NCBI GenBank assembly: GCA_036523395.1
Contig: DATDEH010000102.1
Coordinates: 1-64,000, forward strand
Origin: Candidatus Limnocylindria bacterium
GTDB taxonomy: Bacteria; Chloroflexota; Limnocylindria; P2-11E
Direction: 5' to 3'
DNA length: 64,000 bases
Shown: positions 17,196 through 40,845 of the stretch, one piece after another
Position numbering within the stretch: position 1 is the first letter of the stretch
Layout of the letters: the number at the start of each line of letters is the position of its first letter
Notes under the pieces: generated by a model
Seen by the model: the letters and a program-made list of their open reading frames with translations, nothing else
Told to the model about the DNA's origin: nothing
Databases searched by the model: none
Program-made: the position numbers and the translations under genes

Positions 17196-18212
17196 TCACG
17201 AGCGATTTCGGGAAATCCCGAACACTAGGCGTGGAACAACAACGATGGGACCTGTAGCCCGGAGGGTGTGCAACTGACGGTGTCCGCTGACACCGGGGTC
17301 CTTCATCTTCGAGCGTAGTCGCTCGTACGGCGTCTGCCCTCCGAGCGCACCATGCGGACGCTCGAAGTTGTAGAAGTCCTCCCACTCCTGAAGCTTCGTG
17401 GTGAACACTTTGGCGTCGTCGACCACGACACCGTCGAGGAGGCGATAGAACTCTTCGGCGTCGATGCGGTGCGAGCGCTCAACCTTGCCGTTGAGCCGCG
17501 GGGTGCGCGGCCGGATGTACACGTGCTCGATGCCCAGATCCTGGACGTGCCAGTGGAAGGCGGCCGCGAACTCGGAGCCGTTGTCGGTCTGGATGCGCTC
17601 AACGCGGAAGGGCAGCTTCTGCAGCACGTAGTCGACGAACTGGATCGCGCTCTTCTGGCCGAGGCGCTCGTAGACCCGCAGCACGCGCAGGCGGGTGCAG
17701 TCATCGATCGCCGTAAACTGATAGTGCCGGCGCCGCGAGCCCTTGAGCGGCGCGATGAACTTCACGTCGATCTGCACCTGGTGGCCCGGCTCGGGTTTCT
17801 CGTAGCGCTGCCAGCGCTTGTGGTACGGCACGTGGCGCTGGGACGCCGGCAGGCGGCTGAGGCCCAGGCGCCTGAGGATGCGCCAAATCCCGGAGGTGCT
17901 GACCACCAGCTCGTGGTAGCGGCGCAGGTACATCGCGATCTTCTGCGGCCCGAAGTGGTACGTCTGGCGCAGATGCACGATCTTGCCGACGATCTCGGTA
18001 CTGGTGGCCTGGGGGCTGTGGTGCGGACGACGAGAGCGGTCCTCGAGACCGGGCACGCCCTTCTCGACGTAGCGTCGCAGCCAGACGTAATAGCTCTGCC
18101 GCGTGATCCCGTAATAGCGGCAGGTCAAGGCGACGTTGCCGCTGACTTCCCTCGCGTGACGGATGATCGCCAGACGCCGTGTCGCGGACCTCGCCCGCTC
18201 TTTATCGGTCAC
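17196..18212 (-). CDS. IS481-family transposase, reading out of the left end of the element
   Basis: About 338 residues from GTG 18212, which has AGGAGG seven bases upstream. An N-terminal HTH (VALTCRYYGITRQSYYVWL) is followed by an rve/DDE core: Asp in HQVQIDVKF, Asp in RIQTDNGSEF, Glu in NGKVERSHR. This matches IS481-family transposases. The frame does not stop inside the element. It reads through the left inverted repeat (encoding HRQLHT) and ends about 70 bp into flanking DNA, so the last ~24 residues are derived from the insertion site. The catalytic residues are intact. Confidence 0.9.
   Translation of the reverse strand: MTDKERARSATRRLAIIRHAREVSGNVALTCRYYGITRQSYYVWLRRYVEKGVPGLEDRSRRPHHSPQATSTEIVGKIVHLRQTYHFGPQKIAMYLRRYHELVVSTSGIWRILRRLGLSRLPASQRHVPYHKRWQRYEKPEPGHQVQIDVKFIAPLKGSRRRHYQFTAIDDCTRLRVLRVYERLGQKSAIQFVDYVLQKLPFRVERIQTDNGSEFAAAFHWHVQDLGIEHVYIRPRTPRLNGKVERSHRIDAEEFYRLLDGVVVDDAKVFTTKLQEWEDFYNFERPHGALGGQTPYERLRSKMKDPGVSGHRQLHTLRATGPIVVVPRLVFGISRNRS
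17254..17266. repeat. 13-bp direct repeat left of IS481 (target duplication inside att A)
   Basis: GTAGCCCGGAGGG is identical to 18273-18285 on the other side of the IS. The preceding bases (CAACAACGATGGGACCT) resemble those before other att copies (for example CAACGACGCGGGTCA at att E), so the original att A context extended leftward. Confidence 0.75.
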
Positions 18213-18272
18213 TTGGATCCCTCCTCTTTTGGGCGGACCAAGTGTCAACGACGTCCGTCAGTTTTAGACACA
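17267..18272 (-). mobile_element. IS481-family insertion sequence inserted into the leftmost att site
   Basis: About 1.0 kb. The left end TGTGCAACTGACGG (17267) and the inward-reading right end (complement of 18243-18272, TGTGTCTAAAACTGACGG) form imperfect inverted repeats sharing AACTGACGG and TTGACAC/CTGACAC. Identical 13-bp copies of GTAGCCCGGAGGG flank it at 17254-17266 and 18273-18285. This is the start of the tRNA-Glu-derived att core, so the IS landed inside att A and duplicated 13 bp. Long target duplications occur in this family. Confidence 0.85.
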
Positions 18273-18318
18273 GTAGCCCGGAGGGGATTCGAACCCCTGA
18301 CCTCTTCCTTGAAAGGGA
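18273..18318. repeat. att A: 46-bp tRNA-Glu 3' half
   Basis: From GTAGCCCGG to TTGAAAGGGA, the complement of the tRNA-Glu 3' half from anticodon loop to discriminator. It is identical to att B, D, E and to the corresponding part of the intact tRNA. It lacks the 5' half, so it is not a functional tRNA. It is split from the left flank by IS481. Confidence 0.9.
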
Positions 18319-18454
18319 TGGGGTCGAGAGAAGCGGCCTGGCGAATACTCCAAGCACGAATCGATACGGGCATCGACGCGCAACGCGCATCAGATAAGCG
18401 GCCAACGAGGTCACTGAGGCGGGCAGCAGGCCGTCTCACTAGAGTCAAGTCGCC

Positions 18455-18967
18455 ATGAGTAGCCACGGGGACGCGGCGCGCAAGCCACCCGCGTCGAAAG
18501 CGTCACAGCTGCCTTCACGAACTCCGATCGTGGTTACGTTGCGGGGCGAGGGAGGAGCGGAGATCCAGATTGAGTTAGTCGGTCGCGCGCACCCGGAGCA
18601 GCAGGACTACTGGGACGGCAACTGGCTACGGACACGTGTGAAGGTGCGGGCGGGCGGATTCCATGGAGAGTTCGAGCCTGAACTGCGGGTCGAGGAGTTC
18701 GTTCGACTGCGAGACGGCGTGCGGGTGTGTATGACAGACCTGCGAGGCACGTTCGTGTTTGAGACGATGGAGGACCAACTCGAGATCACGGCGAAGGGCG
18801 ATGGACTCGGTCATTTCCGCGCGGAGTGTCGCGCCGAAGACGTGGCGGGCATCGGCAACGAACTGACCTTCACGATCGACCTCGATCAAACGTACTTGCC
18901 GCCGCTGGCGTCACAACTCGACGCAGCGCTGAAGGTCTTCCCCGTTGTGGGACACCCCGGGGCGTGA
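18455..18967 (+). CDS. WapI-family-like immunity protein
   Basis: A 170-residue protein. The segment DYWDGNWLRTRVKVRAGGF followed by an ELR/EEF acidic-aromatic stretch, GDGLGHFRAE and DQTYLPPLASQLDAAL matches the pattern of WapI-type immunity proteins, which neutralise contact-dependent or polymorphic toxins. It is a small beta-rich cytoplasmic protein with no signal peptide. No toxin gene is evident in E1, so it may act as an orphan immunity gene. It is the first cargo gene of E1. Confidence 0.65.
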   Translation: MSSHGDAARKPPASKASQLPSRTPIVVTLRGEGGAEIQIELVGRAHPEQQDYWDGNWLRTRVKVRAGGFHGEFEPELRVEEFVRLRDGVRVCMTDLRGTFVFETMEDQLEITAKGDGLGHFRAECRAEDVAGIGNELTFTIDLDQTYLPPLASQLDAALKVFPVVGHPGA

Positions 18968-18979
18968 GCCTGACCGCAC

Positions 18980-19387
18980 TTACTTGGCCGAGGCGATAAG
19001 CCAGCCGGAGAGAAGTCCCAAACCAAATCCGAGAAGGACAAACGCGAACTCGACGAATGTACGTGGCTTTCGAAGCTCATCAACGACCCTAGTGCGCCAA
19101 CCGCGCCGCTTCTCCTCCTCTTCTAGGTCGCCCGCAGCAGTAAGCCAGTAGCGAATATCTGAGATCTTGCCTTGGTCACCTGCCGCGATTTCAACCGCTC
19201 GGAATCCATGGAGTTGCGCGATGGCCTTCTCGAATGCCGAGACCGGAACGGACCACTTGCGCTCTATGCAGTAGCCAAGAATCTCAGGCTGTGTCGCGTG
19301 GCCCCGCCATCCGGGCCGGCGCGCTAAGTCGTACAAGGCCGCTCGAACGAGCTGAATTGCCTCGCCGGTTGTCTTTGGCTCTGCCAC
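18980..19387 (-). CDS. Hypothetical protein with C-terminal membrane segment
   Basis: A 135-residue protein. The N-terminal ~90 residues look like a small winged-helix or helical domain (TQPEILGYCIERKWSVPVSA, then IRYWLTAAGDLEEEEK). They are followed by an Arg-rich hinge and one C-terminal helix (FVEFAFVLLGFGLGLLSGWL). The family is not recognised. It is convergent with the WapI-like gene, with a 12-bp gap. Cargo of E1. Confidence 0.6.
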   Translation of the reverse strand: MAEPKTTGEAIQLVRAALYDLARRPGWRGHATQPEILGYCIERKWSVPVSAFEKAIAQLHGFRAVEIAAGDQGKISDIRYWLTAAGDLEEEEKRRGWRTRVVDELRKPRTFVEFAFVLLGFGLGLLSGWLIASAK

Positions 19388-19497
19388 TACTCGTCCTTCC
19401 CGGCCGCGATCATTCGTCGAACATGATTGCCATTTGCCGATTGATGTTAGGCAACAGACCAGGGTTCCACATCACTGCGGCGGCTCGCGCGGTCGAT

Positions 19498-20265
19498 CTA
19501 GTCGGGGTCCGCAATTCGCTCAGAGCGGAGTATTTCGATGCCTCGCAGGTGTTCCGCATAGTTGGTACTCCGTTTAGGCGCTACGAGAACGACATCGTCG
19601 AAACCTCCGTCGAGCATCTCTTGGATCGTGACGTGCCAATACGCTTTGCCAAGGTCGATTGCTTTCCATTTGTCGTCGGCGAGGGTGGCGCGGCGAACGA
19701 CCGCTTGCGTTGCCGGATCACGTCTTATCAGACGCGCCGGGACGCCAATCAGCGTTATCTCCGCCGCCTGAGCCTCACGAATGTCAATTGCCCAGTCGAC
19801 TTGCTCGTAATACGCCGCATTCGCCTGTTTGAACTGCTGGTCCCGCTCGGGGTGGCTTTCGTCGTCAAAGAGGTGGGTGTAGGGCCGGCTGATCAGCGTC
19901 CCGATCTTGCCTCGCAGCGTGACGTGCTTGAACACTGCGCCGAAAACGAGGAGGTGGGTCCGCGCGCTCGTGCGAAGTCCGTCAATGATGGTGTCTTCGA
20001 CGATCGCGCCATTAAGGTAGGTCGCGTGGACCGAACAGTCGACCAAACGGCAGTTGCGAATGACTGGACGGTTAGCGAGATCTGCCCGCACAGCGACGGT
20101 GTAGTTGTCGAAGCTGCAGCGAATGAACTCAAAGTCGCTGCATACCTGGCGGCGGCGTCGAAATGGAGCGGCAGAAAAGTTGGGGCCAGTTACAACTTCG
20201 CCCTCTAAGCGCGAATACTTAGTTATCGGCCCACTAGTGATTGTCTTTCGGTCGAATCGTTTCAC
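19498..20265 (-). CDS. Hypothetical protein, possible beta-helix repeats
   Basis: About 255 residues from GTG 20265. Residues ~40-110 contain short periodic segments (FEFIRCSFDNY, IRNCRLVDCSV, IVEDTIIDGL) reminiscent of pentapeptide or right-handed beta-helix repeats. The C-terminal part is mixed and contains WKAIDLGKAYWHVTIQEML. No catalytic motif is seen. The open frame extends further upstream to 20604, but that stretch runs through the inverted-repeat region and is not protein-like. Cargo of E1; function unknown. Confidence 0.55.
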   Translation of the reverse strand: MKRFDRKTITSGPITKYSRLEGEVVTGPNFSAAPFRRRRQVCSDFEFIRCSFDNYTVAVRADLANRPVIRNCRLVDCSVHATYLNGAIVEDTIIDGLRTSARTHLLVFGAVFKHVTLRGKIGTLISRPYTHLFDDESHPERDQQFKQANAAYYEQVDWAIDIREAQAAEITLIGVPARLIRRDPATQAVVRRATLADDKWKAIDLGKAYWHVTIQEMLDGGFDDVVLVAPKRSTNYAEHLRGIEILRSERIADPD

Positions 20266-20303
20266 CCGCCGGGCATTTTCCCACGGGGATCCCGTCACAG
20301 CCC

Positions 20304-20430
20304 CGCGCTGATCGCGCCCCCTCGTAAGCGGGAGCATCGCGGGCGGTGGTACGCGGTCGCCACCGCCGAAGGCGGGGGCGCGCGTGCGCCGGCCGCGAGC
20401 CTCGCGCGAACGAGGGGCGCGATCAGCGCG
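20304..20430. repeat. Large inverted repeat beside the Rep gene, candidate replication origin
   Basis: CGCGCTGATCGCGCCCC at 20304-20320 continuing to CTCGT pairs with ACGAGGGGCGCGATCAGCGCG at 20410-20430. This gives a stem of about 21 bp around an ~84-base GC-rich loop with further small inverted repeats (GGCGGTGG/CCACCGCC). An arm-type repeat GAGAAGCGGCC follows at 20475-20485. It lies about 320 bp upstream of the HUH Rep gene. Structured DNA upstream of such Reps is typical of double- or single-strand origins. The 20266-20746 gap otherwise holds no convincing gene. Confidence 0.5.
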
Positions 20431-20746
20431 CGCAAGAGATCGCAGCAGGATCGCGTGTCTGTAGATCGCGCGTAGAGAAGCGGCCAATCCTCTTGACCAG
20501 CCGCTAATGCGTGACGTAGTTTCGGCAGCACTCAGAGGTTCCGGTAGCCAGACCGGCCGAGCGGCGTGTGTAGGCACGCGGACGTATGCGATGTGTACGT
20601 CCAACCGATTCGCGTGGCCTTAGTCACAGGATCGGTGGCGACCGAATAAGGCGTGGCCTACACAAGGGTCCGAGAAAGCCTCAGAGCGGTTTTCCCCCAT
20701 CCTTGACTAGCGAAGCTGCGCCCAACACACGAAAGAGGCGCAGCGC

Positions 20747-21319
20747 GTGGCTGAAGCGGCAAGAGGACACACGGCGTGCACGCTGGACTGCTGGCCGTGT
20801 CACCTCGGCTGGTGGATCGCGAACACGTGGCAGTGGCAAGTCTTCGCCACGCTCACGCACCGAGATCCGGAAGTGCTACGCGGCGCCTTTACGCACGTCG
20901 GAGTCGGCGGCGCCGAGCGGCAGCTCATCCGCTGGTGGGATCGCTCCATTCGTCCGCGAGCTCCGGGCGCGTTCGCGTGGTTCCAAATGGAAGCGCACAA
21001 GGCGCGCCCAACGCCTCATTGGCACGGCCTGATCGGTGGGCTGCCGTCCGATCTTCAACGGTCGGACATCTGGTCAGAGTGGTTCAAAGCGCCGCGTGGC
21101 GGCCTCGCGCGACTCGAGCCCATCCGTGACGTCGATGGTGTTGCGCTCTACGTCGCCAAGTACGTCACCAAGGACCTGGGCAAGCCGTGGTTCCTGGGCA
21201 ATCTGCGTGACGCTCGTAGACTCGCTCGCGGCCTGCTGCCCGCCGGGAAGGAAAACGATGACCGGCGTTCGGACCTTTACAACTCGATCACGACCGATGA
21301 GGTGGGCGGAGATGCGTGA
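20747..21319 (+). CDS. HUH-type rolling-circle replication initiator (Rep)
   Basis: A 190-residue protein from GTG 20747. It has the three Rep motifs in order: VFATLTHRD at ~32-40 (motif 1), PHWHGLIGG with the metal-binding HUH pair His91/His93, and YVAKYVTKD at 135-143 (catalytic Tyr plus Lys). Such proteins nick an origin and stay attached through the Tyr to start rolling-circle replication. The last 8 bp overlap the int1 start. The tail GLLPAGKENDDRR recurs at the end of the Replic_Relax protein in E4, although the two proteins are otherwise unrelated. This points to a module junction. Confidence 0.85.
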   Translation: MAEAARGHTACTLDCWPCHLGWWIANTWQWQVFATLTHRDPEVLRGAFTHVGVGGAERQLIRWWDRSIRPRAPGAFAWFQMEAHKARPTPHWHGLIGGLPSDLQRSDIWSEWFKAPRGGLARLEPIRDVDGVALYVAKYVTKDLGKPWFLGNLRDARRLARGLLPAGKENDDRRSDLYNSITTDEVGGDA

Positions 21320-22301
21320 TGAACGCACCGCTCTAGTCGATGTCGTTGAGAGCTTCTTCATTCACCGCAACGACCTGTCGGCGGCTACGGCAGCCAACTA
21401 TCGAATCGCAATCGCGCAGTTCGTGAGGTGGTGCGGCGCATCGCTTGGACGACCGCCGACCATTAGCGATCTCGAGGGAGGCACCGTCGAGGCTTACCTG
21501 CATTTCCGACGCGTCACCGTATCCGCACAAAGCGCACGGAGTGGATGGGTGGCGCTTCGATCACTTGCGAAGTTCCTCGCTGAACGACGAATCCATCACG
21601 ACAACGGCGACTCAGTTCTCCGGCTGGTGAGACAACCGAAAGTCAAGGACGAGCCACGTCGGGCGTTGACCGACGAAGAGATGTGGCGTGTCCTCGAAGT
21701 TTCCGCCACCGGCGAGATGGGGCTGCGTGACAAGGCTCTCGTGTGGACGCTGCTCGGCTGTGGGCTTCGGCGTGCCGAGGCGGCGAACCTCCGGTTCTCC
21801 GACGTCAAGGTGCATGACCGGACGCTTCACGTAAGGGCGCAAACGAGCAAGTCAGTCCATCCACGCGACGTGACCATTCCGATTGAGACAGCGAAGGTGT
21901 TGGACGAGTACCTCGATCAGCGCGAGGGCGAAATCGACGCGGACGCACCGTTTTTCGTTGATCGACACGGGCGGGCTCTCTCAGGGAACGGGATCCGCAA
22001 ACTCTTCGAACGCCTCAAAGTACGTTCGGGCATCCGCGACCTGTGCGCTCACATCAACCGGCCGACATGGGCGACGAACTTTCATCGGTCTGGCTCGGGC
22101 TCGCGATTCGATCTCATGGTCGAGGGCGGATGGACAACGGGACGGATGGTCGAGCGGTATACGAAGGCAAGACCCGTCGAAGAACGACGACGCGCTCCGT
22201 CACCGTTCACGGCATCACGGAGTGCGCGGAAAGAGAAGAGGCCGTTAGAGAAGCGGCCTTCACATCAGATAAGCGGCCTGTTCGGGAAGCGCACGGCCTA
22301 A
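21312..22301 (+). CDS. Tyrosine recombinase (integrase int1, subfamily alpha)
   Basis: A 329-residue phage-type integrase with a SAM-like N-terminal core-binding domain and a C-terminal catalytic domain. Catalytic residues are Arg153 (GCGLRRAE), His247 and Arg250 (AHINR), Trp274 (EGGW) and Tyr283 (ERYTKA). The usual HMLRHTWAT box is HINRPTWAT, so the conserved His after Arg is Pro; activity could be impaired. The C-terminal tail KEKRPLEKRP is encoded by the right-arm repeats. It overlaps the Rep stop by 8 bp and ends 23 bp before att B. Confidence 0.92.
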   Translation: MRDERTALVDVVESFFIHRNDLSAATAANYRIAIAQFVRWCGASLGRPPTISDLEGGTVEAYLHFRRVTVSAQSARSGWVALRSLAKFLAERRIHHDNGDSVLRLVRQPKVKDEPRRALTDEEMWRVLEVSATGEMGLRDKALVWTLLGCGLRRAEAANLRFSDVKVHDRTLHVRAQTSKSVHPRDVTIPIETAKVLDEYLDQREGEIDADAPFFVDRHGRALSGNGIRKLFERLKVRSGIRDLCAHINRPTWATNFHRSGSGSRFDLMVEGGWTTGRMVERYTKARPVEERRRAPSPFTASRSARKEKRPLEKRPSHQISGLFGKRTA

Positions 22302-22324
22302 GCGACCAATAACGACGCGGGTCT

Positions 22325-22370
22325 GTAGCCCGGAGGGGATTCGAACCCCTGACCTCTTCCTTGAAAGGGA
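22325..22370. repeat. att B: 46-bp tRNA-Glu 3' half
   Basis: Same 46-bp core as att A. The sequence diverges immediately after TTGAAAGGGA into GCAGGCCTAGG, the class II left arm of E2. The left flank AACGACGCGGGTCT is shared with att D. Confidence 0.9.
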
Positions 22371-22645
22371 GCAGGCCTAGGGAAGCGACCTAGCGATGAA
22401 GTTACGAATGAAAGACGCGCCGGACCGGCCAACTCCGCGCGTCAGGAAAGCGGAGCTCACAAGGATCACAGGAAAGGAAGCGGCCTGGGAAGCCGCGCGC
22501 ACGTTGCGCGGCGCGCGGTCGGCGAGTTGGATCGCTTCCCTGCCGGGGCGGAAGATCGCAACAACGTCCTCCGCCCCCGGCCACATCTACCAACGAAGCG
22601 AAGCCGACACGCGACTTGCGAACCCGTCGTGACGCGAGGGTTGCC

Positions 22646-23317
22646 CTATTTGTAAGCGGTTAGCGTGCAGTGAGCGGGACCCCAATCGTACGAACCGCCG
22701 CTCGAGATCGAGTGGTCGCTCTCCGTGAAGTACGTGTGCTGCGTCTCCCACCACCAACGCCAATCCTGCGCCGAATAGCGTTCAGCGTTGGTGCCGACCA
22801 GGCTGCTGACACCCCAGTAACTTACGAGATTCCCGTCCTTGTAGAACTTCGCCCCGGACGGTGACATGAACACACTGAGGGTGGCCGTCGCGTTACTCCT
22901 CGTCCAGCCTCCACCCCAAACATACGTACCGGATCCGGGATAGTCGGTCCAGAAAACGCCACATTGAGCGTCGGAGTACAGGTGGCTCGTCGGCAGCGCA
23001 GATGAACTCCCCGGTACGCGGCGAAGACCCAGGCGCGCAGCTGTTGTCTTACGCTGCACGATGAGCGCGCCTTCGTCGACGAGTCGCAACATTGCGGCGG
23101 ATCGGCGAAGGACCGCCTCCCGCATCCGTGCCTCATCCGCCACGGTCACCGTGGCAACCTCCTCCCAGGTCTGTGGGATTCGAACGCCCACGGACGTGGC
23201 CGTGATAGGACCGGTGATATCGCCCCATCGCGGAGGCGCGGCGAACGCATCCGTTTGTCCCATAAGCGCGAAGGACGCCAGTACGACGAGCATGGCCCTG
23301 AAGTTCTTCTTTGCCAT
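22646..23317 (-). CDS. Secreted aromatic-rich protein of unknown function
   Basis: A 223-residue protein from ATG 23317. Its signal peptide (KKNFRAMLVVLASFALMGQTDAFA) has a likely cleavage at AFA-AP. The mature protein has a helical N-terminal third. The beta-rich C-terminal half is very rich in Trp/Tyr/Ser/Gly (TYVWGGGW, WRWWWETQHTYF) and has two Cys. A segment KFYKDGNLVSYWG weakly resembles EFYYDGSTAVLNNHFG in the E5 secreted protein. The family is not recognised. It diverges from the LuxR-type gene; both may be controlled by the element's sigma factor. Confidence 0.65.
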   Translation of the reverse strand: MAKKNFRAMLVVLASFALMGQTDAFAAPPRWGDITGPITATSVGVRIPQTWEEVATVTVADEARMREAVLRRSAAMLRLVDEGALIVQRKTTAARLGLRRVPGSSSALPTSHLYSDAQCGVFWTDYPGSGTYVWGGGWTRSNATATLSVFMSPSGAKFYKDGNLVSYWGVSSLVGTNAERYSAQDWRWWWETQHTYFTESDHSISSGGSYDWGPAHCTLTAYK

Positions 23318-23470
23318 CACTTGACCCAACCTTTCGTGTAATTTCGTTTCGTTGGCGTATGAGTGGTATAGAGCCGCTAACCTTGGGGCAAGATGGCATT
23401 CAGACCAGTAGTCATTCGGCTAGCCAGGTAGGCGGCAAAGTGAGGCGAGGTTCGAACCTCGGACGAGCGA

Positions 23471-23704
23471 ATGAAAGAAAAGAAACCGCTCACTCCAAAA
23501 CAGCGCCGGATCATCTACCTCCTGCTCGACGGTTGCATAAGCAAGCAAATCGCCGCACTCATGGGCATTTCAGAGGCAGGAGTAAAGAAGCACCTCGAGA
23601 GCCTCAGACGGCGATATGGCGTGAGCACGCGTTCCGCACTCATGAGGAGCGCGATCGAGTCGGGGGACGTTCGACTCGGCCTGCGTCGACGGCTTGGCGG
23701 ATAG
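23471..23704 (+). CDS. Stand-alone LuxR-type HTH regulator
   Basis: A 77-residue protein that is essentially one LuxR_C_like (GerE) HTH: LTPKQRRIIYLLLDG, then KQIAALMGISEAGVKKHLESL and a C-terminal RRRYGVSTRSALMRSAIE. It shares GVKKHLExLxRRYxV and an AIExGD tail with the LuxR protein of E4 at 33540-33800, so the two elements carry homologous regulators. There is no receiver or ligand domain. It lies upstream of the sigma/anti-sigma genes in the same direction. Confidence 0.85.
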   Translation: MKEKKPLTPKQRRIIYLLLDGCISKQIAALMGISEAGVKKHLESLRRRYGVSTRSALMRSAIESGDVRLGLRRRLGG

Positions 23705-23937
23705 GAGACGAACGTCTCGCGATAGCATCGATCCTCGATATCAGCGACCGGTCGAACTGGCGCTCGCACCAACCTTGTGAAGCCGCGGCAGGGCCCAGCA
23801 CTCTGCGCCAGAGAGCTCCATGCGGGTGGCAAGGCGAAGAGCTAAGCGGTCGGGGCTCAACACGCACCCTGGGCTCGTCAGACGGGTTGAGTGCAGACCA
23901 TAACGCTGAGAGCCCCTTCAAAGCTCTTTAGTACAGG

Positions 23938-24414
23938 GTGAGCGTCATCGAATCGCACGAGCGCTCCGTCGCGACCGCGCTGCAGGACGAAGATCTATAC
24001 AAACGGATCTTCCGTGCGCTCGTCGCGGTCGGCGCTAGTACGGACGAGGCAAGCGACGCGCTGCAGGACGCGTACGAACAGGCACTTCGCCAATCACAAC
24101 CGCTGCAGCGCGTTGAAGGATGGCTATTCGTCGTGGCCCAGCGGCGATGGCGGCGTCAGCGGATACGACGTCTCCTATTTCGTCCACTCAACGCTGCCCG
24201 TGGGCACGTAGCAATCCCGATTGAACCCGGCGGAGTTCTGGCGGAGGTGCGGAAGCTTCCGATGCGACAACGGCAGGTCTTCGTCGCTCGTCATGTGCTC
24301 GGACTGAGCAATGATGAGACCGCGAAAGCACTCGGCATTGCCGACGGCACAGTCTCCGCGACCAACCACCACGCGCTGCACACATTACGCAAACTTCTGG
24401 GAGGTGAGATATGA
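23938..24414 (+). CDS. ECF-like sigma-70 factor
   Basis: A 158-residue protein from GTG 23938. Region 2 is DLYKRIFRALVAVGAS, then DEASDALQDAYEQAL and WLFVVAQRRWRRQR. Region 4 is LPMRQRQVFVARHVLGLSNDETAKALGIADGTVSATNHHAL. The order and size match extracytoplasmic-function sigma factors. The stop overlaps the next start (ATGA), coupling it to the anti-sigma-like membrane protein. A 233-bp gap before it contains no clear gene. Confidence 0.85.
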   Translation: MSVIESHERSVATALQDEDLYKRIFRALVAVGASTDEASDALQDAYEQALRQSQPLQRVEGWLFVVAQRRWRRQRIRRLLFRPLNAARGHVAIPIEPGGVLAEVRKLPMRQRQVFVARHVLGLSNDETAKALGIADGTVSATNHHALHTLRKLLGGEI

Positions 24415-33276: not shown

Positions 33277-33539
33277 GCGTCGCTTGCCACCGCTCGGTCG
33301 ACCCCCCGGATAGGGCGCGACAGTCAGGCCTGCGGTGCCGTCTTGTGGGCCCGAGCGAGTCCGCCCGATGAACGAAGCGTGGGTATCCGAACGTGTCGCG
33401 ATCCTTCAGTTCCTCCTGCCCATCGGCATCGTTTACCCGCCGTCACCTGGATGTTTAGCCCGCGTTTACCAAATAGATAGGTGGTCGGCCGACTAGTAGC
33501 CGCATCTGCGACAAAGCACACACGCAGGCGAGGAGCGGC

Positions 33540-33800: not shown

Positions 33801-33949
33801 ACCCGACGCGCTCTGGATTCGGTCTCCATGACACTCGAGGTTGCGAGGGCTGAGCGCCGGGCAATGCAGGCTCGGTGGGATTCACGTCACTCGACAAATG
33901 TGACGCAGGTCATGCGGCTGATCCCTCGCCGACGGTATGACCACTGGCT

Positions 33950-34099
33950 ATGGAATTAATTACCGGACTTAGTGATGACGGCTCGCAGCCAGATCGGCCC
34001 GCCACCCTATCGGCCTTCGTGACACGGGAAGTACTCCGCAGGGTCGACGAAGACGTGTTCCATCGGTTGTTCTTTGATCGTTCCGGCGAAGAACGCTGA
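33950..34099 (+). CDS. Small hypothetical protein, 49 residues
   Basis: ATG 33950 opens a 49-codon frame, MELITGLSDDG followed by PATLSAFVTREVLRRVDEDVF, with an amphipathic helix and normal codon usage. It lies between the LuxR-type gene and the Replic_Relax gene in the same direction. No ribosome-binding site stands out. The rest of the 33801-34154 gap shows nothing. Confidence 0.35.
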   Translation: MELITGLSDDGSQPDRPATLSAFVTREVLRRVDEDVFHRLFFDRSGEER

Positions 34100-34154
34100 T
34101 TAGCCGGAATTGCTCACTAAGTCGACAAAGCTCGACCTGACTTCTGTCTCTCGA

Positions 34155-35153
34155 ATGAACCTGTCATTCGCTCGTCAGACCGAAGTCATCTCGCAGCTCG
34201 CCGGGTTTCGCTTTCTGACCCAGCCGCAGATCGACGAGTTCCTCTTCGCCGGGTCCTCGCTGACGGCACTCTCGCGACAGGTCATCGTTCGGCGGCTCCT
34301 GGTACGCCTCAAAAGGCAGGGCCTCGTCCAGATGACCCCGCGCGTCGTGGCTTCCGCCGGCGGCACCGCCCGCCTCGTGTACTTCCTCAGCGCCGCCGGC
34401 TACAACCGCGCCCGTGACGGGAACTCCGCGCTGCGGGCGGGCCGTCCGGGGATCCGCAGTAGCACCCTCATGGAGCACGGGCTGGCCTGCGCCGACGTCG
34501 CGCTCGCCTTCCGGCGCCTGGCGCGGTCGCGTCCTGGCCACGAGATCCTCGAATGGGAATGCGACTGGCAGGCCGCGGAGCGCCTGGGCTCGTCCGTCGT
34601 GGTCCCTGACGCGCATCTGTCCTATGCCACCGCAACCGACACGCTGGAAGCCTTCTTCGAGATCGATCGCGCGACGGAAGGCTCGAAGGTCTTCAAGCGC
34701 AAGGTCCGGCGCTATCTCGAACTCTACTGGTCCGGCGACTGGCGCCGGCACCTCAAGGAGTGGCCCATCATCTTCACCGTCACACCGAGCTCCACGCGCG
34801 CGAGGCTTCTTAAGCGCGTCACCGAGACCGTCCTCGACGCCCAAGGCGAGGGTGCGCGGATCTACCGCATGACCAAGTTCCGCTTCGCTACGCTCGACGA
34901 CGTCATCGCGCCAGAAGGACCGTTCGCAGAGATTTGGCACCGCGCCGGCGAGAGCGGGCTGCATGCGGGCTCCGGTCGGGTCGACTCCGTGACCAGACGC
35001 CTCGCGCCAGCCGTGCGCAGCCGCGCCGGTAGACTCGGCAGCGGCCTGCTGCCCGCCGGGAAGGATGAGCATGACCGGCGTACGCACCTTAACAACACAG
35101 ACATCGCGAGCAACTGGCACGCCCAGACCCACGAGGTGGGCCGAGATGCGTGA
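34155..35153 (+). CDS. Replic_Relax-family (replication-relaxation) protein
   Basis: A 332-residue protein from ATG 34155. The N-terminal winged helix reads AGFRFLTQPQIDEFLFAGSS, then RLLVRLKRQGLVQ. The core reads STLMEHGLACADVALAFRRL, WECDWQAAERLGSSVVVPDA, FFEIDRATEGSKVFKRKVRRY and WPIIFTVTPS. It is closely similar to the E5 protein and more distant from the E2 protein. The last ~45 residues include GLLPAGKDEHDRR, also found at the end of the unrelated E1 Rep. The stop overlaps the int3 start by 8 bp, exactly as Rep overlaps int1. Confidence 0.8.
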   Translation: MNLSFARQTEVISQLAGFRFLTQPQIDEFLFAGSSLTALSRQVIVRRLLVRLKRQGLVQMTPRVVASAGGTARLVYFLSAAGYNRARDGNSALRAGRPGIRSSTLMEHGLACADVALAFRRLARSRPGHEILEWECDWQAAERLGSSVVVPDAHLSYATATDTLEAFFEIDRATEGSKVFKRKVRRYLELYWSGDWRRHLKEWPIIFTVTPSSTRARLLKRVTETVLDAQGEGARIYRMTKFRFATLDDVIAPEGPFAEIWHRAGESGLHAGSGRVDSVTRRLAPAVRSRAGRLGSGLLPAGKDEHDRRTHLNNTDIASNWHAQTHEVGRDA

Positions 35154-36138
35154 CAGTCACGCACCTCTGGTCGAAACCATGGAGAGCTTTCTCGTGCACC
35201 GTCACGACCTCTCGCCAGCCACAGCGGCCAACTACCGCATCGCGATCGCAGCGTTCGCGAGCTGGTGCGAGCGGGTCCTCGGCCGTCCGGCCGAGATCGG
35301 CGACGTCGAGCCGGGCACCGTGGAGCAGTACCTGAGCGAACGCAAGAAGACCATCTCCGCACAGACCGCGCGCTCGGCCTGGGTCGCCCTCAGATCGGTG
35401 GCGCGGTTCCTCGCCGAGCAGCGGATCCATCACGACCAGGGTCAATCGATGCTCCGGCTCGTCCGAATGCCAAAGGTGAAGGACGAGAGCCGCCGCGCGC
35501 TCACCGACGACGAGATGTGGCATCTCATCGAACGCTCCGCCGAGAGCGAGAGCGGCAAACGCGACAGCGCCATCGTCTGGACGCTTCTCGGCTGCGGTCT
35601 CCGCAGGGAGGAGCTCGCCGGACTTCGCCTCGGCGACGTCGATCTCAGCGAGCGGCGTCTGCACATCAGAGCCGCGACGACCAAATCGGTCCACCCACGC
35701 GACGTCAACCTCCCCATCGAGAGCCTCAAAGCGCTCGACTCATATGTCGCAGACCACCGCAAAGGCGGCGACGACGCGCACGAACCGCTGTTCACCGACC
35801 GCCGCGGCAACGGCCTCACCGGCAATGCGGTCCGCAAGCTCTTCGAGCGCCTCGAGGCGCGCACCGGCATCCGCGGACTCTGCGCTCACATGCTGCGGCA
35901 CACGTGGGCGACGAACTTCCATCGCTCCCGGTCGGGCACGCGCTTCGATCTCATGGTCGAAGGCGGCTGGACCACCGGACGGATGGTGGAGCGATACACC
36001 AAGGCGCGGCCGTTCGAGGAACGTCGCAAGGCGCCCTCACCGTTCACCGCGTCGCGCGACGCGCGAAAAGAGAAGAGGCCGTCAGAGAAGCGGCCCTCAC
36101 AGAAGAGAAGCGCCCTGGACGAAAAGCGCATCGCGTAG
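35146..36138 (+). CDS. Tyrosine recombinase (integrase int3, subfamily alpha)
   Basis: A 330-residue integrase with the full catalytic set: Arg153 (GCGLRREE), His248/Arg251 (AHMLRHTWAT), Trp275 (EGGW) and Tyr284 (ERYTKA). It is close to int1 through its length (shared HHDxGxSxLRLVRxPKVKDE, TKSVHPRDV) and more distant from int2/int4. The C-terminal tail KEKRPSEKRPSQKR coincides with right-arm repeats. It ends 24 bp before att E. It is probably an active integrase that recombines tRNA-Glu 3' ends. Confidence 0.93.
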   Translation: MRDSHAPLVETMESFLVHRHDLSPATAANYRIAIAAFASWCERVLGRPAEIGDVEPGTVEQYLSERKKTISAQTARSAWVALRSVARFLAEQRIHHDQGQSMLRLVRMPKVKDESRRALTDDEMWHLIERSAESESGKRDSAIVWTLLGCGLRREELAGLRLGDVDLSERRLHIRAATTKSVHPRDVNLPIESLKALDSYVADHRKGGDDAHEPLFTDRRGNGLTGNAVRKLFERLEARTGIRGLCAHMLRHTWATNFHRSRSGTRFDLMVEGGWTTGRMVERYTKARPFEERRKAPSPFTASRDARKEKRPSEKRPSQKRSALDEKRIA

Positions 36139-36161
36139 AGAGCTAACAACGACGCGGGTCA

Positions 36162-36207
36162 GTAGCCCGGAGGGGATTCGAACCCCTGACCTCTTCCTTG
36201 AAAGGGA
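36162..36207. repeat. att E: 46-bp tRNA-Glu 3' half
   Basis: Identical core. The left flank ACGACGCGGGTCA is identical to that of att F. It is followed directly by GCGGGCCTAG, the class II left arm, closely matching the sequence after att B. Confidence 0.9.
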
Positions 36208-36588
36208 GCGGGCCTAGATAAGCGGCCCACGCGACGAAATACGAATGATTGACGCGCCGGACCGACCAACATCGCGCGTCTGGGAAGCGGCCCTCGCGGA
36301 CCTCGCGCAAAGGGAAGCGGCCATCGGATTCCGTCGCGATGAGAGCGCTCGATCAGCGGCCACGTACCTGCTCGAGGTCGAGAGGGATAAGAGATAAGGA
36401 CACCTGAAACGCGCCACGGTACTGCCTGCGACCGATCGTAAACGCACACGCATCGTCGAAGTGGGCACATATCTGCGGCCAAGCCCGACAGCGCGCGGTC
36501 CCGCGTTGTCGTACCCAGTGCCGCGGCGCAACCTTACGGATGGCCGGCGCGTGAGGCAGCAGCTCAGCCGAAACGCTCGGGCCCCGCC
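36208..36588. other. Gene-free left end of E5 with arm repeats
   Basis: Contains three AAGCGGCC-type repeats (36217, 36282, 36312) and a further CAGCGGCC near 36355. The rest shows no convincing coding frame. It ends at the minus-strand membrane protein gene. Confidence 0.55.
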
Positions 36589-37044
36589 TCAGTAACAGAT
36601 AAAGTCCGCGGGTTGGACGAAGCGTTGCATTGCAAGTGGCAGCCCATATGCGACAAACACGGTAGCGACAGCTAAAACAAGGGCAACTCGGCGCATTCGC
36701 GACGCACGTGGAAGTCGCAGCGCGCCAGCGAGCGCCAACAAGGAAACGAGCGGCCATCCCTGAGCGAAAAGGGCCGCGGCACCCGCGGAGCCAACGACTG
36801 CGGCAGTTCTATGTCGGTCGTCGTCTGACATAGCTGCCCATGCGAGCACGATGAATAGGATGAGAGTGATGACGATACCGGTCAGAACATCTGCGCGCAG
36901 TTGAAATCGCGGCCAACAATCTACTGTTACCAAGCGGAATGCGCCGACTAACAGAAGTGCTGCGACAAAGGCCGTAATCGCTCGCCCGACCCATGCGGGT
37001 CGGGCAAAGCGATTCGAGGGCATCGGATGCGCTGAGCTGCTCAT
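36589..37044 (-). CDS. Small polytopic membrane protein
   Basis: About 151 residues from ATG 37044, overlapping the upstream secreted-protein stop (ATGA). Four hydrophobic segments are visible: AITAFVAALLLVGAF, LTGIVITLILFIVLAWAAM, VVGSAGAAALFAQGWPLVSL and VALVLAVATVFVAYGL. No recognisable motif or family. Being translationally coupled to a secreted protein, it may be its immunity or export partner; this is inference only. Confidence 0.65.
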   Translation of the reverse strand: MSSSAHPMPSNRFARPAWVGRAITAFVAALLLVGAFRLVTVDCWPRFQLRADVLTGIVITLILFIVLAWAAMSDDDRHRTAAVVGSAGAAALFAQGWPLVSLLALAGALRLPRASRMRRVALVLAVATVFVAYGLPLAMQRFVQPADFICY

Positions 37045-37679
37045 ATGTAGTACGTCAACCTGGCGATCACTCTGCACGTTCTGCACACGTTTCCAACGTG
37101 CGAGTACTCGCTGTAACAGTTTCCGTTGTAGTAGCCATACGCCCAGATGGTCTTGTAGTGGTCGTACGATCCCCACCAGTAATAGTCAGCCGACGCATCC
37201 GCCTCGATAGTTGAAGCCGGTCCCGAAGCATAGGCGTATTCACTGAAGTTTGACGAGCTATACGGGCTACCTCCGGCGGTGTACGCCGATCCAAAGTGAT
37301 TGTTAAGAACCGCGGTCGACCCGTCGTAGTAGAACTCGATTGATTCCCTAAGCCTGGTCATGTCTGCGAGCCCGAGATCGTCCCACATGATGTTATCTGT
37401 GCGACATCCCCGGAGTGAGCTCGCCATGACCGCAGCGTTTCGCGGCCCGCCCGTCGGTGTGGCTGATGACTTTGTCTCACTAATGTGAATCTGACAGCGA
37501 CTATCGACCCAAGCGACCACTTCATGAACGCGAATAAGCCGACTCACTTCGAGAGAACCGTGGAGTGAGACGAAACACCCTGAACTTGATGCGGCATGCG
37601 CTGCATCGACCAAAACCGATGACAGCAGTAGCACGATTGCGACGGACATGACGGTCAAGCTACGCACTACGCCGGCCAT
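37041..37679 (-). CDS. Secreted aromatic-rich protein of unknown function
   Basis: A 212-residue protein with a clear signal peptide (SLTVMSVAIVLLLSSVLVDAAHA, cleavage near AHA-AS). The mature domain has six Cys and a Tyr/Ser/Gly-rich C-terminal half (FSEYAYASGP, DYYWWGSYDHYKTIWAYGYY). Composition and the EFYYDGST segment recall the E2 secreted protein, so both may belong to one cargo family. No catalytic motif is seen. The coupled membrane gene follows. Confidence 0.65.
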   Translation of the reverse strand: MAGVVRSLTVMSVAIVLLLSSVLVDAAHAASSSGCFVSLHGSLEVSRLIRVHEVVAWVDSRCQIHISETKSSATPTGGPRNAAVMASSLRGCRTDNIMWDDLGLADMTRLRESIEFYYDGSTAVLNNHFGSAYTAGGSPYSSSNFSEYAYASGPASTIEADASADYYWWGSYDHYKTIWAYGYYNGNCYSEYSHVGNVCRTCRVIARLTYYI

Positions 37680-38032
37680 GTGTTCACCTCAGTCGAGAAG
37701 ATTTGGGAGTGCTGCGGCACGTCGTGCTAAACAGACTCGCGTCGATAGGTCTCTAAGACTTTCGTCCGCCCGTCGAGATAGGGCGGCGTGCCCCGCGGTG
37801 CCGTTGGATCGTCGAGCAGCCCGCGTCCCACGCGTATCCCTTGGTCATGGTCCGTTGCCGGTCGCGCGGTGCTAAGCCAAGGAGGCGCATTGCTGTTCAG
37901 TTGAATACACTCACTCCACAATTGGGTCAACACACAATTCTGTAAAATTGCGCTCTCTCGTCTACCTACCCGGCCAGCAAGCGTCGCGACGCCCACGAAC
38001 GAACGCCTCCGACAATTGCGCGTCCAACGAGC
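37680..38032. other. Intergenic region of E5, no gene recognised
   Basis: The part near 37885-37965 is unusually AT-rich for this window (TTCAGTTGAATACACTC, ACACAATTCTGTAAAATT) and could hold promoters for the minus-strand secreted-protein operon. An 89-codon minus frame here has no protein-like features. Confidence 0.4.
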
Positions 38033-38360
38033 TCATTGCTTGACCTGCAGCGAAACGCGCCATCCCATGCCTCGAAGCGCGTGCGCGAGCTCGTCGTCTC
38101 TCGCCGGCCACTGCGCATCCGCGATGCCCGACAGAAGCGGCCGGTACGGCCCGCGCCGCGATTGGCGAAGAGCGACCCGGAAGAGCCAGCCGGCGAGGTT
38201 TTCGTCGTGTGCCGGCGGCCGGCTCCAGCCCTGCGAGAAATGCCTCGTGTAGAGCGTGACGGGCCGCGTCGCGATCCCGCAGACTGGCGAGCAGCGCCCG
38301 AAAGACGCGCGGCGCCTCTTCCCTGTAAACGCGCTCCCAGCGCTCCGCGGTTGGCGTGCG
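38033..38360 (-). pseudogene. Remnant of an ECF-like sigma factor
   Basis: One minus frame encodes ERWERVYREEAPRVFRALLA, then DAARHALHEAFLAGL, matching region 2 of the E4 sigma factor. After a frameshift near 38205-38215 a second frame continues with AHDENLAGWLFRVALRQSRR. Region 4 is missing; the frame ends at TGA 38033. So E5 once carried the same sigma cargo as E4 and has lost it by frameshift and deletion. Confidence 0.72.
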
Positions 38361-38756
38361 GGCCTTGATCCAACACCCAGTTAATGCAGCAAGTACCTGG
38401 AAATGTTTAGCGCTGGCAAGGTTCGCTCCCAGACACTACGGGAGGCTCACCGAGCGTTTCCGTGGTCCTGAGCTCGGGCCCGGCGACTTCGGACGACAGC
38501 CGCACTTGGTCACATTCTCAATGTGAAGTGCGCCACGGTGGCCGATGGGGTCGTTCCGGTACACCGCGAGGGTGCCGCCGACATTCCTCGTTAGCATCTT
38601 CGCCGCTGGGCTATTGGTATCGCCGTTGGGTGGGCGTTGGTCTCGGCCAACTGTCCGACCTCGACTTTCGTCCGATTCCTACGAGGTGCGACGCGTCCCT
38701 GGGGTGCTGAGTTTCTCGTTCGAGAGATCCTTCGTCGTCTCGTGTGAGAAAAGCCA
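38361..38756. other. Intergenic region of E5 upstream of Replic_Relax
   Basis: Contains ACCTGGAAATGTTTAGC (38395-38411), nearly the same as ACCTGGATGTTTAGC in E4 upstream of its LuxR-type genes. No intact LuxR-type gene is found here. Short plus-strand frames are Arg/Ser-rich and not convincing. Confidence 0.4.
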
Positions 38757-39629
38757 CTGATCACCGCCGGCCGGCGCGAGGCCGATGTCGTTCGGCTCCT
38801 CGCGCTCCACCGTTTCCTCACCCACCCTCAGATCGAGGAGTTCCTCTTCGCGGAGTCGACGCTCACGCCACGCTCCCGCCAAGTCGTCACGTGGCGGCTC
38901 TTGGGACGGCTCCAGCGCCAGGGCCTCGTGGCCGCCACGCCGCGCCAGAGTGGCGGTGCCGTCGCCGGCTCCACGCTCCCCGGTTACTTCCTCACGACGC
39001 CAGGGCTGCGGCTCGCGACGACGTTCTACCCGGACATTCCTTCGCGGCGGCCGGCGCGGCGTGCGCCGTTCCTCTTCGCCCACAGCGTGATGGCCGCCGA
39101 CGTCGAGCTCGCTTTCCGTCGGGCCACGCGCGGGAATCCCGGGCACGAGCTGGAGCTGTGGGAGTGCGACTGGCAGACCGCAATCAAGCTCGGGAGCAAA
39201 AAGCTGCTCCCCGACGCGCGCTTGGTCTATCGCCTGGGCAGGGCGCTGATCGATGCGTTCGTCGAAGTCGATCTGGGAACCGAGGGAACGCGCTTCTTCG
39301 CCGGCAAGATCGACCGCTACATCTCGGCCCGCTACGACGGCGATTGGCGCGCCCAGCTGCCGCGCTGGCCGATGACCCTCACTATCACACCCACCGCGGC
39401 GCGCGCCGCGGCGCTCTGGGATGCGACGACGGTGCGACTTAAGGAGCACCCGTGGTCCTCGGGCGGGTTGGTGTTCAAGTTCTGTGCGATCGACGCGCTT
39501 CTGGGCGAATCCGGAGTCCTCGGCGCTCGCTGGCGCGTCGCCGGGAACAAGGAGTCGTCGCTGTTCGCAAGTCCAGAGCAGCTTGCGGCGGCGAGTCCAG
39601 AGCAGCTCGCGGCGGCGCCGGGTGCGTAG
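38757..39629 (+). CDS. Replic_Relax-family protein, start codon unclear
   Basis: About 290 residues. The frame from CTG 38757 reads LALHRFLTHPQIEEFLFAES, then RLLGRLQRQGLVAATP, aligning with the E4 homologue from its N-terminus. The core reads AHSVMAADVELAFRRATRG, LWECDWQTAIKLGSKKLLPD, AFVEVDLGTEGTRFFAGKIDRY and WPMTLTITPT. The frame has no ATG or GTG upstream of the conserved part. The first TTG (38901) would remove the winged helix. The real start may be CTG or has been mutated. The C-terminus has a duplicated SPEQLAAA repeat. It precedes int4 by ~90 bp. Confidence 0.72.
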   Translation: MITAGRREADVVRLLALHRFLTHPQIEEFLFAESTLTPRSRQVVTWRLLGRLQRQGLVAATPRQSGGAVAGSTLPGYFLTTPGLRLATTFYPDIPSRRPARRAPFLFAHSVMAADVELAFRRATRGNPGHELELWECDWQTAIKLGSKKLLPDARLVYRLGRALIDAFVEVDLGTEGTRFFAGKIDRYISARYDGDWRAQLPRWPMTLTITPTAARAAALWDATTVRLKEHPWSSGGLVFKFCAIDALLGESGVLGARWRVAGNKESSLFASPEQLAAASPEQLAAAPGA

Positions 39630-39718
39630 CGCGACTTTGTTGAGACGCGTTCGCGCAGTCACGCTTGTGACCGCGAGTAGTGTTCTCCGCGGTCGGTCCG
39701 GCGCGGGGAGAAGAACAG

Positions 39719-40747
39719 ATGAAATCCCGCGCAGCAGTGCTCAGGTGGTCGGCCTTGCGTGACAAGAAGGCCGACCTCAAGGAGGTCACAGAGAGCTTCT
39801 TGGTCCACCGCCACGACCTATCTCAGGCAACGCAAACCAATTACCGGCTGCAGTTCCGGCTTTATGACGGCTGGGTCGCGGCACAGCTCGGCCGGCCCAC
39901 GCGCGTCGAAGACGTTGAACCGGGCACGGTCAACGCGTATCTCGAACACCGACGAACGATGGTCTCCACACAGTCCGCGCACGCCGCGTGGAAGGCGCTG
40001 CGCTCGCTCGCGACGTTCCTCGCCGAGCGCAGGATCCTCGCGGACCGCGGCGGAAGCGTCCTGCAGCACATCCGCGCACCACGCATCAAGGACGAGGCGC
40101 GTCGCGCACTCACCGACGACGAGCTGCTTCGGCTCCTCACGCACGCCGGACAAGGCGAGACGGGTCAACGCGACCGCGCCATCGTCATGACGCTGCTCGT
40201 GTGCGGCATCCGCCGGGGCGAGCTCTGCGGTCTTCGGCTCGGCGACGTCGACCTGCGCGAGCGCTGTCTCCACGTCCGCGCCGCGACGAGCAAGTCCGGC
40301 GAAGCCCGCGACGTCACGCTCCACCTCGAGGCCGCGAAGGAGCTCGACAGGTACATCAACGACATCCGCGAGGGCGACACCGTTCCGGACGCGCCGCTCT
40401 TCACCGATCGCTCCGGTCACGCGCTCACCGGCAACGCGGTCCGCAAGCTCTTCGATCGGCTCAAGGTGAGCACCGGCATCGACGATCTCTGCGCGCACAT
40501 GCTCCGCCACACCTGGGCGACGAACTACCACCGCTCGGCGAGCGGCAGCCGCTTCGACCTGCAGGCCGAAGGCGGATGGCGCACCGGACGGATGGTCGAG
40601 CGATACACCAAGAGCCGGCCGTTCGAAGAGCGACGACGCGGACCGTCGCCGCTCACCGCGTTCCGCGAAGCGACGAAAGGAAAGCGGCCTACGGGGAAGC
40701 GGCCGCCACAACAGGGAAGGGGCCTGACCGAAATACGCACGGCGTAA
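39719..40747 (+). CDS. Tyrosine recombinase (integrase int4, subfamily beta)
   Basis: A 342-residue integrase from ATG 39719, with GGGGAGAAG 9 bp upstream. Catalytic residues are Arg165 (VCGIRRGE), His260/Arg263 (AHMLRHTWAT), Trp287 (EGGW) and Tyr296 (ERYTKS). All are intact. It is nearly the same sequence as frameshifted int2. Its tail includes KRPTGKRPPQQ encoded by the right-arm repeats. It ends 23 bp before the intact tRNA-Glu. Being next to the reconstituted tRNA, E5 is a candidate for the most recent or still mobile insertion. Confidence 0.93.
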   Translation: MKSRAAVLRWSALRDKKADLKEVTESFLVHRHDLSQATQTNYRLQFRLYDGWVAAQLGRPTRVEDVEPGTVNAYLEHRRTMVSTQSAHAAWKALRSLATFLAERRILADRGGSVLQHIRAPRIKDEARRALTDDELLRLLTHAGQGETGQRDRAIVMTLLVCGIRRGELCGLRLGDVDLRERCLHVRAATSKSGEARDVTLHLEAAKELDRYINDIREGDTVPDAPLFTDRSGHALTGNAVRKLFDRLKVSTGIDDLCAHMLRHTWATNYHRSASGSRFDLQAEGGWRTGRMVERYTKSRPFEERRRGPSPLTAFREATKGKRPTGKRPPQQGRGLTEIRTA

Positions 40748-40770
40748 GAACTGAATAACGACGCGGGTCA

Positions 40771-40816
40771 GTAGCCCGGAGGGGATTCGAACCCCTGACC
40801 TCTTCCTTGAAAGGGA
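40771..40816. repeat. att F: att core within the intact tRNA-Glu
   Basis: The 46-bp core shared with att A-E lies in the tRNA 3' half from anticodon loop to the end plus two bases. Left flank ACGACGCGGGTCA as at att E. Right of the core the sequence is the tRNA 5' half instead of an element left arm, so this is the chromosome-proximal end of the array. Confidence 0.9.
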
Positions 40817-40845
40817 AGCGCCCTGGACCACTAGGCGACCGGGCC
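40772..40845 (-). tRNA. tRNA-Glu (anticodon UUC), integration target of the array
   Basis: Reading the minus strand, acceptor GGCCCGG pairs with CCGGGCT. The anticodon stem-loop CTTCC-CTTTCAA-GGAAG gives anticodon TTC, the T-arm has GGTTCGAATCC, and the discriminator is A. No CCA is encoded. The 3' 46 bp (40771-40816) are repeated as att A-E. Only this copy has the complete 5' half. It overlaps the end of the minus-strand GGDEF-like pseudogene by 15 bp. Confidence 0.93.

Follow-up and report, generated by a model that had tools for sequence, protein, structure and literature searches.

Relaxases of the MOBC family PF13814, which is related to restriction endonucleases (PMC12857230), have been described in integrative and mobilizable elements (IMEs) (PMC5357655, PMC7563491). 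Most streptococcal IME_PF13814 elements (IME class 8, MOBC) have serine integrases with VirD4 and are sited between genes; one case in Streptococcus salivarius combines PF13814 with a tyrosine integrase and has no coupling protein (PMC7563491). No stack observed in this species exceeds three elements, and none has two IMEs of the same superfamily side by side (PMC7563491). In accretion composites such as ICESt1/ICESt3 and those at the S. agalactiae tRNA-Lys gene, elements that share attachment (att) sites queue at one gene, integrase-less members, the cis-mobilizable elements (CIMEs), keep their att ends, and decayed members lie farther out. Here we describe an array of five segments, E1 to E5, at a tRNA-Glu(UUC) gene of a Candidatus Limnocylindria bacterium (Chloroflexota), located in a 64,000-nucleotide stretch of contig DATDEH010000102.1 that we call the window. 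We read it as a stack of IME-like elements with decayed or dependent relatives, produced by repeated site-specific integration into that one gene, and put the probability of this reading at roughly three in four.

The initial annotation of the window could not name the family, but a PF13814 gene joined to an integrase gene is the layout of streptococcal MOBC-type IMEs (PMC5357655, PMC7563491). As in IME_PF13814, the PF13814 gene of the window elements stands directly upstream of the integrase gene, and the elements are compact, carry variable cargo and lack a secretion system. They differ in having a tyrosine integrase, a target in the tRNA-Glu anticodon loop, no coupling protein and stacks of one type, three PF13814 elements standing together where S. 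salivarius has no such case. Unlike composites of the ICESt1/ICESt3 type, the stacks here are deeper (five, and about nine in a relative) and show one integrase family and conserved arm repeats. In actinomycete integrative and conjugative elements (AICEs) of the pSAM2 type, a replication initiator gene lies upstream of a tyrosine integrase gene and the target is a tRNA gene. E1 resembles this layout, but an FtsK/TraB-type transfer gene was not found among the Pfam matches of its open reading frames (ORFs). The tycheposons of Prochlorococcus are also integrated at tRNA genes, with a tyrosine recombinase and varied cargo; by description alone, the window elements are set apart from them by another host phylum and other replication genes.

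Anatomy of the array at tRNA-Glu

The array belongs to a 3.0-Mb draft genome (95% complete, 128 contigs) and lies on a contig of 66.7 kb (C102). As first annotated, six copies of a 46-bp tRNA-Glu(UUC) 3′ half cut 22.5 kb into five segments of 4052, 5107, 1752, 6978 and 4609 bp (E1 to E5), in agreement with the element sizes of 1.7-7 kb given then. Five copies (18273, 22325, 29184, 36162 and 40771) match the core without a mismatch and the one at 27432 has a single mismatch; because the next best place within the 64 kb has 18 mismatches, a chance origin of the six copies is excluded. ARAGORN detects one tRNA in the window, Glu(UUC) at 40771-40845 on the minus strand, confirming that the last copy alone is complete. 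A weak tRNA-like hit in Rfam (29185-29254, 34.1 bits) corresponds to the E4 att copy plus arm. The array starts at about 17,254, since the outermost att copy is split by an insertion sequence (IS) of the IS481 family: GTAGCCCGGAGGG, the 13 bp with which the core opens (17254-17266), recurs at 18273 across the IS, as a target-site duplication predicts, and the start at 17254 in the earlier annotation is thus a real att remnant. The transposase ORF (17196-18248) extends beyond the left end of the IS.

17254..17266, +, remnant of the outermost att (core positions 1-13), left of the IS
17267..18272, -, IS481-family insertion sequence that splits the outermost att and is flanked by a 13-bp duplication (GTAGCCCGGAGGG)
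18273..18318, +, att copy 1, left end of E1, 46/46
18273..22324, +, E1: WapI-like immunity protein (18455-18967), probable HUH Rep, integrase
22325..22370, +, att copy 2, E1/E2 boundary, 46/46
22325..27431, +, E2: LuxR-type regulator (23471-23704), extracytoplasmic function (ECF)-like sigma factor (23938-24414), PF13814 relaxase, broken integrase
27432..27477, +, att copy 3, E2/E3 boundary, 45/46
27432..29183, +, E3, integrase-less: PIN/Phd-type toxin-antitoxin genes, arm repeats at both ends
29184..29229, +, att copy 4, E3/E4 boundary, 46/46
29184..36161, +, E4: S8 peptidase, beta-propeller protein, ECF sigma factor, LuxR, PF13814 relaxase, integrase
36162..36207, +, att copy 5, E4/E5 boundary, 46/46
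36162..40770, +, E5: secreted or unknown proteins, PF13814 relaxase, integrase
40771..40845, -, intact tRNA-Glu(UUC), the present target gene, 40771-40816 being the 46-bp att core

The integrase genes (PF00589) seen earlier near the boundary of four segments do stop 24, 25, 24 and 24 bp before the att copies at 22325, 27432, 36162 and 40771, but that of E2 is a pseudogene with frameshifts at ~26721 and ~27146. The E1, E4 and E5 genes are open frames with every catalytic residue. Inactivity of the E1 integrase through a change of HxxRH to HxxRP was considered and rejected, its catalytic residues being present. Core-binding and catalytic domains are the only Pfam domains in these integrases.

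21314..22301, +, E1 tyrosine integrase, R, K, HxxR, W and Y residues present
26383..27407, +, E2 integrase pseudogene, broken by two frameshifts, DNA 90% identical to the gene of E5
35147..36138, +, E4 tyrosine integrase, within ORF 35065-36138, start codon approximate
39722..40747, +, E5 tyrosine integrase

The block of att identity extends from the 3′ end of the tRNA to just beyond the anticodon loop, and the element-side consensus core, GACCTCTTC-CTTGAAAGC-GATGAGGTC, forms an inverted pair of half-sites. Left arms are of two types, one in E1, E3 and E4 and the other in E2 and E5; the former is alignable over ~173 bp in nine elements and contains GAGAAGCGGCC twice and the hairpin-like GAGGCGGGCAGCAGGCCGCCTC. 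Right arms align in eight elements. Their three GAAGCGGCC-type repeats, laid out in E1, E2 and E4 as in E5, double as code for the KRP-rich integrase tail, and because E3 keeps them without an integrase gene, the arm repeats are conserved as DNA. Repeats are present on both sides of each att core. Flanking the cores, AAGCGGCC occurs 18 times forward and never in reverse within the array, where a third-order Markov model predicts 1.3 occurrences, and a single time elsewhere in the window.

18327..18442, +, left arm of E1, with AAGCGGCC at 18331 and 18396 followed by a hairpin (GAGGCGGGCAGCAGGCCGTCTC)
29087..29130, +, right-arm repeats of E3, integrase gene absent
40670..40770, +, right arm of E5, three GAAGCGGCC-type direct repeats

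With both sets of end repeats, a near-perfect core and no integrase gene, the 1.75-kb E3 fits the description of a CIME, namely att ends kept, no integrase or mobilization genes, and a place in tandem with an integrating element.

Arrays in relatives and repeats at other tRNA genes

Related genomes, whose search the initial annotation had proposed as a check, do hold tRNA-Glu(UUC) genes flanked by homologous integrase genes and att repeats, several of them in arrays. Related integrase genes adjoin tRNA-Glu(UUC) in four genomes (G011, G001, G006 and G022), G006 and G001 hold arrays, and G026 and G022 hold single segments. In a set of 177 genomes from the class, the Glu-type core is confined to the family of the window's genome. 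The G006 array (C64, 116670 to 153000) has ten att copies, two of them partial, across 36 kb; its approximately nine segments carry a cation efflux protein, large cyclase-AAA proteins, MOSC and an ArsP permease, and integrase sequence is present in the last segment and, as a C-terminal remnant, in one other. Core mismatches number 2, 2, 12, 2, 4 and 10 in the outer copies and 1, 1, 1 and 0 in the inner ones, so the outer cores are more diverged, as polar accretion predicts. An element in G001 encodes relatives of two E4 proteins, an S8 peptidase and a propeller-type protein. A 2.9-kb E1-like element in L072 lies between two exact att copies on another contig. Serial accretion at tRNA-Glu, as originally suggested, is thus supported both by the sequence of the window and by the same core, end repeats and related integrases in relatives.

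Named genomes with integrase relatives are mostly metagenome-assembled genomes of Chloroflexota (e.g., UBA4730 and DBS2-1.bin91), a plasmid search with the integrase returned distant matches only (26-31% identity among the matches listed), and the best relatives in IMG/VR reach 31% identity. The L072 contig (VBOY01000187) is filed under Candidatus Eisenbacteria, probably through misbinning or recent transfer. In G023, a segment of ~480 bp (L065, 4529-5005) lies between tRNA-Glu and a truncated att copy.

The direct repeats that flank the att core are similar to the half-site in the anticodon stem of the tRNA that serves as target, and they differ between elements at tRNA-Glu, tRNA-Cys, tRNA-Tyr and tRNA-Gln genes. 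The genome of the window has a second array, of two segments, at tRNA-Cys (L100, G000:C83, 353-9275), with three copies of the tRNA-Cys 3′ half. In the tRNA-Cys element the repeats are AGACCTCTGCGGG instead of GAAGCGGCC, and the tRNA sequence is GCAGACCTCTGCC. At tRNA-Tyr, GTCAGCCGCC is the repeat, and the complement of TCAGCCGCCT forms the tRNA half-site; in G029, several copies of TCAGGTGCCC accompany the tRNA-Gln sequence GAGTCAGGTGCC. At 7 of the 12 loci compared, among which Glu, Tyr, Cys and Gln are all represented, an element's own tRNA outscores every control tRNA of another type. Compared with E5, the tRNA-Cys element has a relaxase gene of 81% DNA identity, but an integrase of just 25% identity; the repeats thus track the integrase, not the relaxase. 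We infer that the GAAGCGGCC-type repeats on both sides of the core are probably extra core-type integrase sites rather than lambda-type arm sites or an origin of transfer (oriT). Extra direct-repeat integrase sites beside a core are known from attI1 of integrons, where they are called DR1 and DR2 (PMC8946536).

Relaxase and replication genes, cargo and flanks

A PF13814 (MOBC, Replic_Relax) relaxase gene, scoring above the curated cut-off, lies directly upstream of the integrase gene in E2, E4 and E5, and PDA, ExD and K residues are invariant in the three copies. The same slot in E1 holds a probable HUH rolling-circle initiator instead. A compact replication-integration module, as initially annotated, is therefore present but not uniform.

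20747..21319, +, E1 probable HUH rolling-circle initiator, PF23343 at 22.3 bits (cut-off 27.8 bits), HWH and YVAKY motifs
25318..26274, +, E2 PF13814 protein, 2.6e-19
34110..35153, +, E4 PF13814 protein
38757..39629, +, E5 PF13814 gene, no ATG, GTG or TTG start upstream of the domain

The E5 gene may use a CTG start or be slightly decayed. PHROGs labels related phage proteins as acting in replication initiation by nicking. Searches of plasmids with the HUH and PF13814 proteins and sequence searches of the PDB yielded no matches, and no HUH relative was found in IMG/VR.

The HUH gene of L072 is 96% identical to that of E1 (dN 0.02; dS 0.22 and 0.06 in two parts), values that indicate strong purifying selection. 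The integrases of the two elements are only ~70% identical, with dS near 2, which implies that modules have been exchanged at the border between the replication and integrase genes. The unrelated upstream genes of E1 and E4 point to the same exchange, since their 3′ ends (21211-21283 in the HUH gene, 35024-35096 in the PF13814 gene) share ~70 bp at 84% identity, overlapping the integrase start. A hairpin-like sequence at the left end, GGCGGGCAGCAGGCCGCC, returns inverted at this junction in both elements (18420-18441 and 21225-21245 in E1; 29332-29350 and 35040-35060 in E4); it is possibly an origin, a nick site or a terminator.

No type IV secretion system or coupling gene was detected by Pfam among the element ORFs scanned, nor were phage structural matches, and no tra/FtsK-type transfer gene was found in the segments. 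Within the family, only G006 has a coupling-protein domain (L137, G006:C25, 7706-9029), and it adjoins a PF13814 gene. A reading of the cargo as a defence island was dropped because a subtilase domain was all that PADLOC matched there.

IS481-like ends or similar sequence adjoin the first base of the tRNA-Glu 3′ end or of an att copy in several genomes (window 17267-18272; L022 near 8406; L072 1-314; L068 near 4269; L050 18879-20000), which suggests that this insertion sequence may prefer such sites. Left of the array lies a region that could be an older part of the island.

1380..17253, no strand assigned, region left of the array, possible older island part

This region holds genes for a MacB-type ABC transporter and for DsbD-like, cupredoxin and PNPOx-like proteins; cupredoxin homologues are cargo in the outermost G006 segment. 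All of 1.4-40.8 kb may be one island, since the ArsR-AHSA1 pair (467-1310) stands beside tRNA-Glu in three relatives, but in three others it is sited elsewhere.

Origin and significance of the array

We propose that the tyrosine integrase of each element would insert its circular form into the tRNA-Glu(UUC) gene by recombination in the anticodon loop, with a crossover that probably falls within TTGAAAG, between the element half-sites GACCTCTTC and GATGAGGTC. The element would bring a replacement tRNA 3′ half and thereby restore the gene, the displaced 3′ half becoming the far boundary, and a newcomer would enter at the restored tRNA gene and push earlier elements outwards. Crossover within the tRNA and gene restoration are supported by the identity block, which ends just past the anticodon loop, and by the complete tRNA-proximal copy; integration at the tRNA, restoration and outward displacement are the well-supported part of the scheme. 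Integrase-less elements that have arms and core (E3 and most G006 segments) may be integrated and excised in trans. The PF13814 (MOBC) or HUH protein would nick the excised circle for rolling-circle replication, and the nicked circle could be transferred with the secretion system of a helper; nicking that serves replication, transfer or both is likely.

Judged as IMEs, E1, E4 and E5 have an integrase and bounding att sites, the E2 integrase is broken and E3 has none. A relaxase is recognised through PF13814 in E2, E4 and E5, and E1 has only the sub-threshold HUH match. No secretion system of their own was found in the element ORFs scanned or, by PF02534/PF12696, in the genome. The array does not look like a prophage or phage satellite, given the lack of phage structural Pfam matches in the scanned ORFs and IMG/VR integrases at ≤31% identity. 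The single family of five first annotated holds for the shared att/arm system and, in four elements, for one integrase family, but not for the integrase-less E3, the broken gene of E2 or the two unrelated replication/relaxase genes.

Several observations weigh against our interpretation. The structure model of the PF13814 protein, of low confidence, gave only weak matches, among them the restriction endonucleases FokI, PaqCI and BspD6I, with none at E ≤ 0.001. The HUH assignment consists of the sub-threshold Pfam match and motifs, and its AlphaFold model has a predicted local distance difference test (pLDDT) score of 38.9. No coupling protein (PF02534, PF12696) was detected in the window's genome, nor was a helper element identified there, and transfer would therefore need an outside helper or may not occur. 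The match between arms and tRNA is not outstanding at 3 of the 12 loci (L010, L011 and L012), and the Glu loci in that comparison are related to each other. The elements are known from assembled sequence alone, and their excision and transfer are putative.

The array may instead be wholly fossil, with separate past arrivals by accretion, all but perhaps the newest now dead, and E3 and the integrase-less G006 segments being CIMEs decayed by deletion whose repeats are remnants. The two frameshifts in the E2 integrase gene, the E5 relaxase gene without a standard start codon, the IS within the outermost att and the restriction of G006 integrase sequence to the last segment and a remnant all agree with this, and in streptococci decayed elements sit farthest from the target (PMC7563491). 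However, the open E1, E4 and E5 integrase genes with all catalytic residues, the retention by E3 of both arm sets and a near-perfect core without an integrase gene, and the strong purifying selection on the HUH gene (E1 versus L072, dN 0.02, dS 0.22) argue that decay is not the whole story, and we regard a fully fossil array as a serious possibility that is nevertheless probably wrong. We consider it unlikely that the tRNA locus is an integron-like platform for gene capture, where att-sharing cargo segments come and go by the action of a single integrase in trans. The roughly nine att-bounded segments of G006 with one near-complete integrase, the arm-bounded, cassette-like E3 and the resemblance of the arms to core half-sites, as in attI1 DR1/DR2, speak for such a platform, the direct repeats beside the core being putative integrase sites here. 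Yet four of the five window elements have their own integrase gene in place of a single platform integrase, the target is a tRNA gene with near-identical tRNA-derived att copies, attC-like sites were not seen (the IntI-specific domain was not searched for), and movement of the cargo segments is putative.

The AAGCGGCC direct repeats could also be the relaxase binding site of an oriT rather than integrase sites: MOBC relaxases bind direct repeats, TraX of pAD1 binding five of them distant from nic (PMC12857230), and all repeats in the array are on one strand. But the same repeats accompany the unrelated HUH protein in E1, they flank both sides of each att core, and the tRNA-Cys element has different repeats and a different integrase beside a relaxase protein that is 87% identical. 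Because the repeats follow the integrase, we reject this reading as improbable. Even less credible is an assembly artefact, or an origin from one element duplicated in tandem. The genome is a 128-contig draft and the contigs of relatives often end beside att copies, but cargo and size differ between segments, a single 66.7-kb contig holds the whole array and, on its tRNA flank, conserved cysS, and the arrangement recurs in other species that were assembled independently.

Beyond the stack of IME-like elements itself, we tentatively suggest a broader model, which we think rather unlikely to hold in full: integrases without a lambda-type arm domain would use attP arms made of repeated half-sites of the target tRNA, so that an element's ends would encode its choice of target, integrase-less cargo would move in trans because arms and core are enough for it, and the Chloroflexota tRNA locus would serve as an integron-like store. 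Accretion, tandem elements, CIMEs and MOBC IMEs are known; same-family stacking of this depth and arms that mimic the target are new, and the latter are the least expected finding and the one most worth testing.

With these findings an uncultured lineage of the Chloroflexota, a phylum that goes unmentioned (as Chloroflexi) in an IME review, joins the hosts of IME-like elements and of deep stacks of one family, and the stack is a counter-example to the streptococcal observation that elements of the same superfamily do not stack. Should the arm repeats prove to be core-type sites for the integrase and to vary with the target tRNA, the target of an element would be readable from its ends. A change of integrase target would then be testable within one genome, where a nearly identical relaxase is found with two integrases at two tRNA genes.

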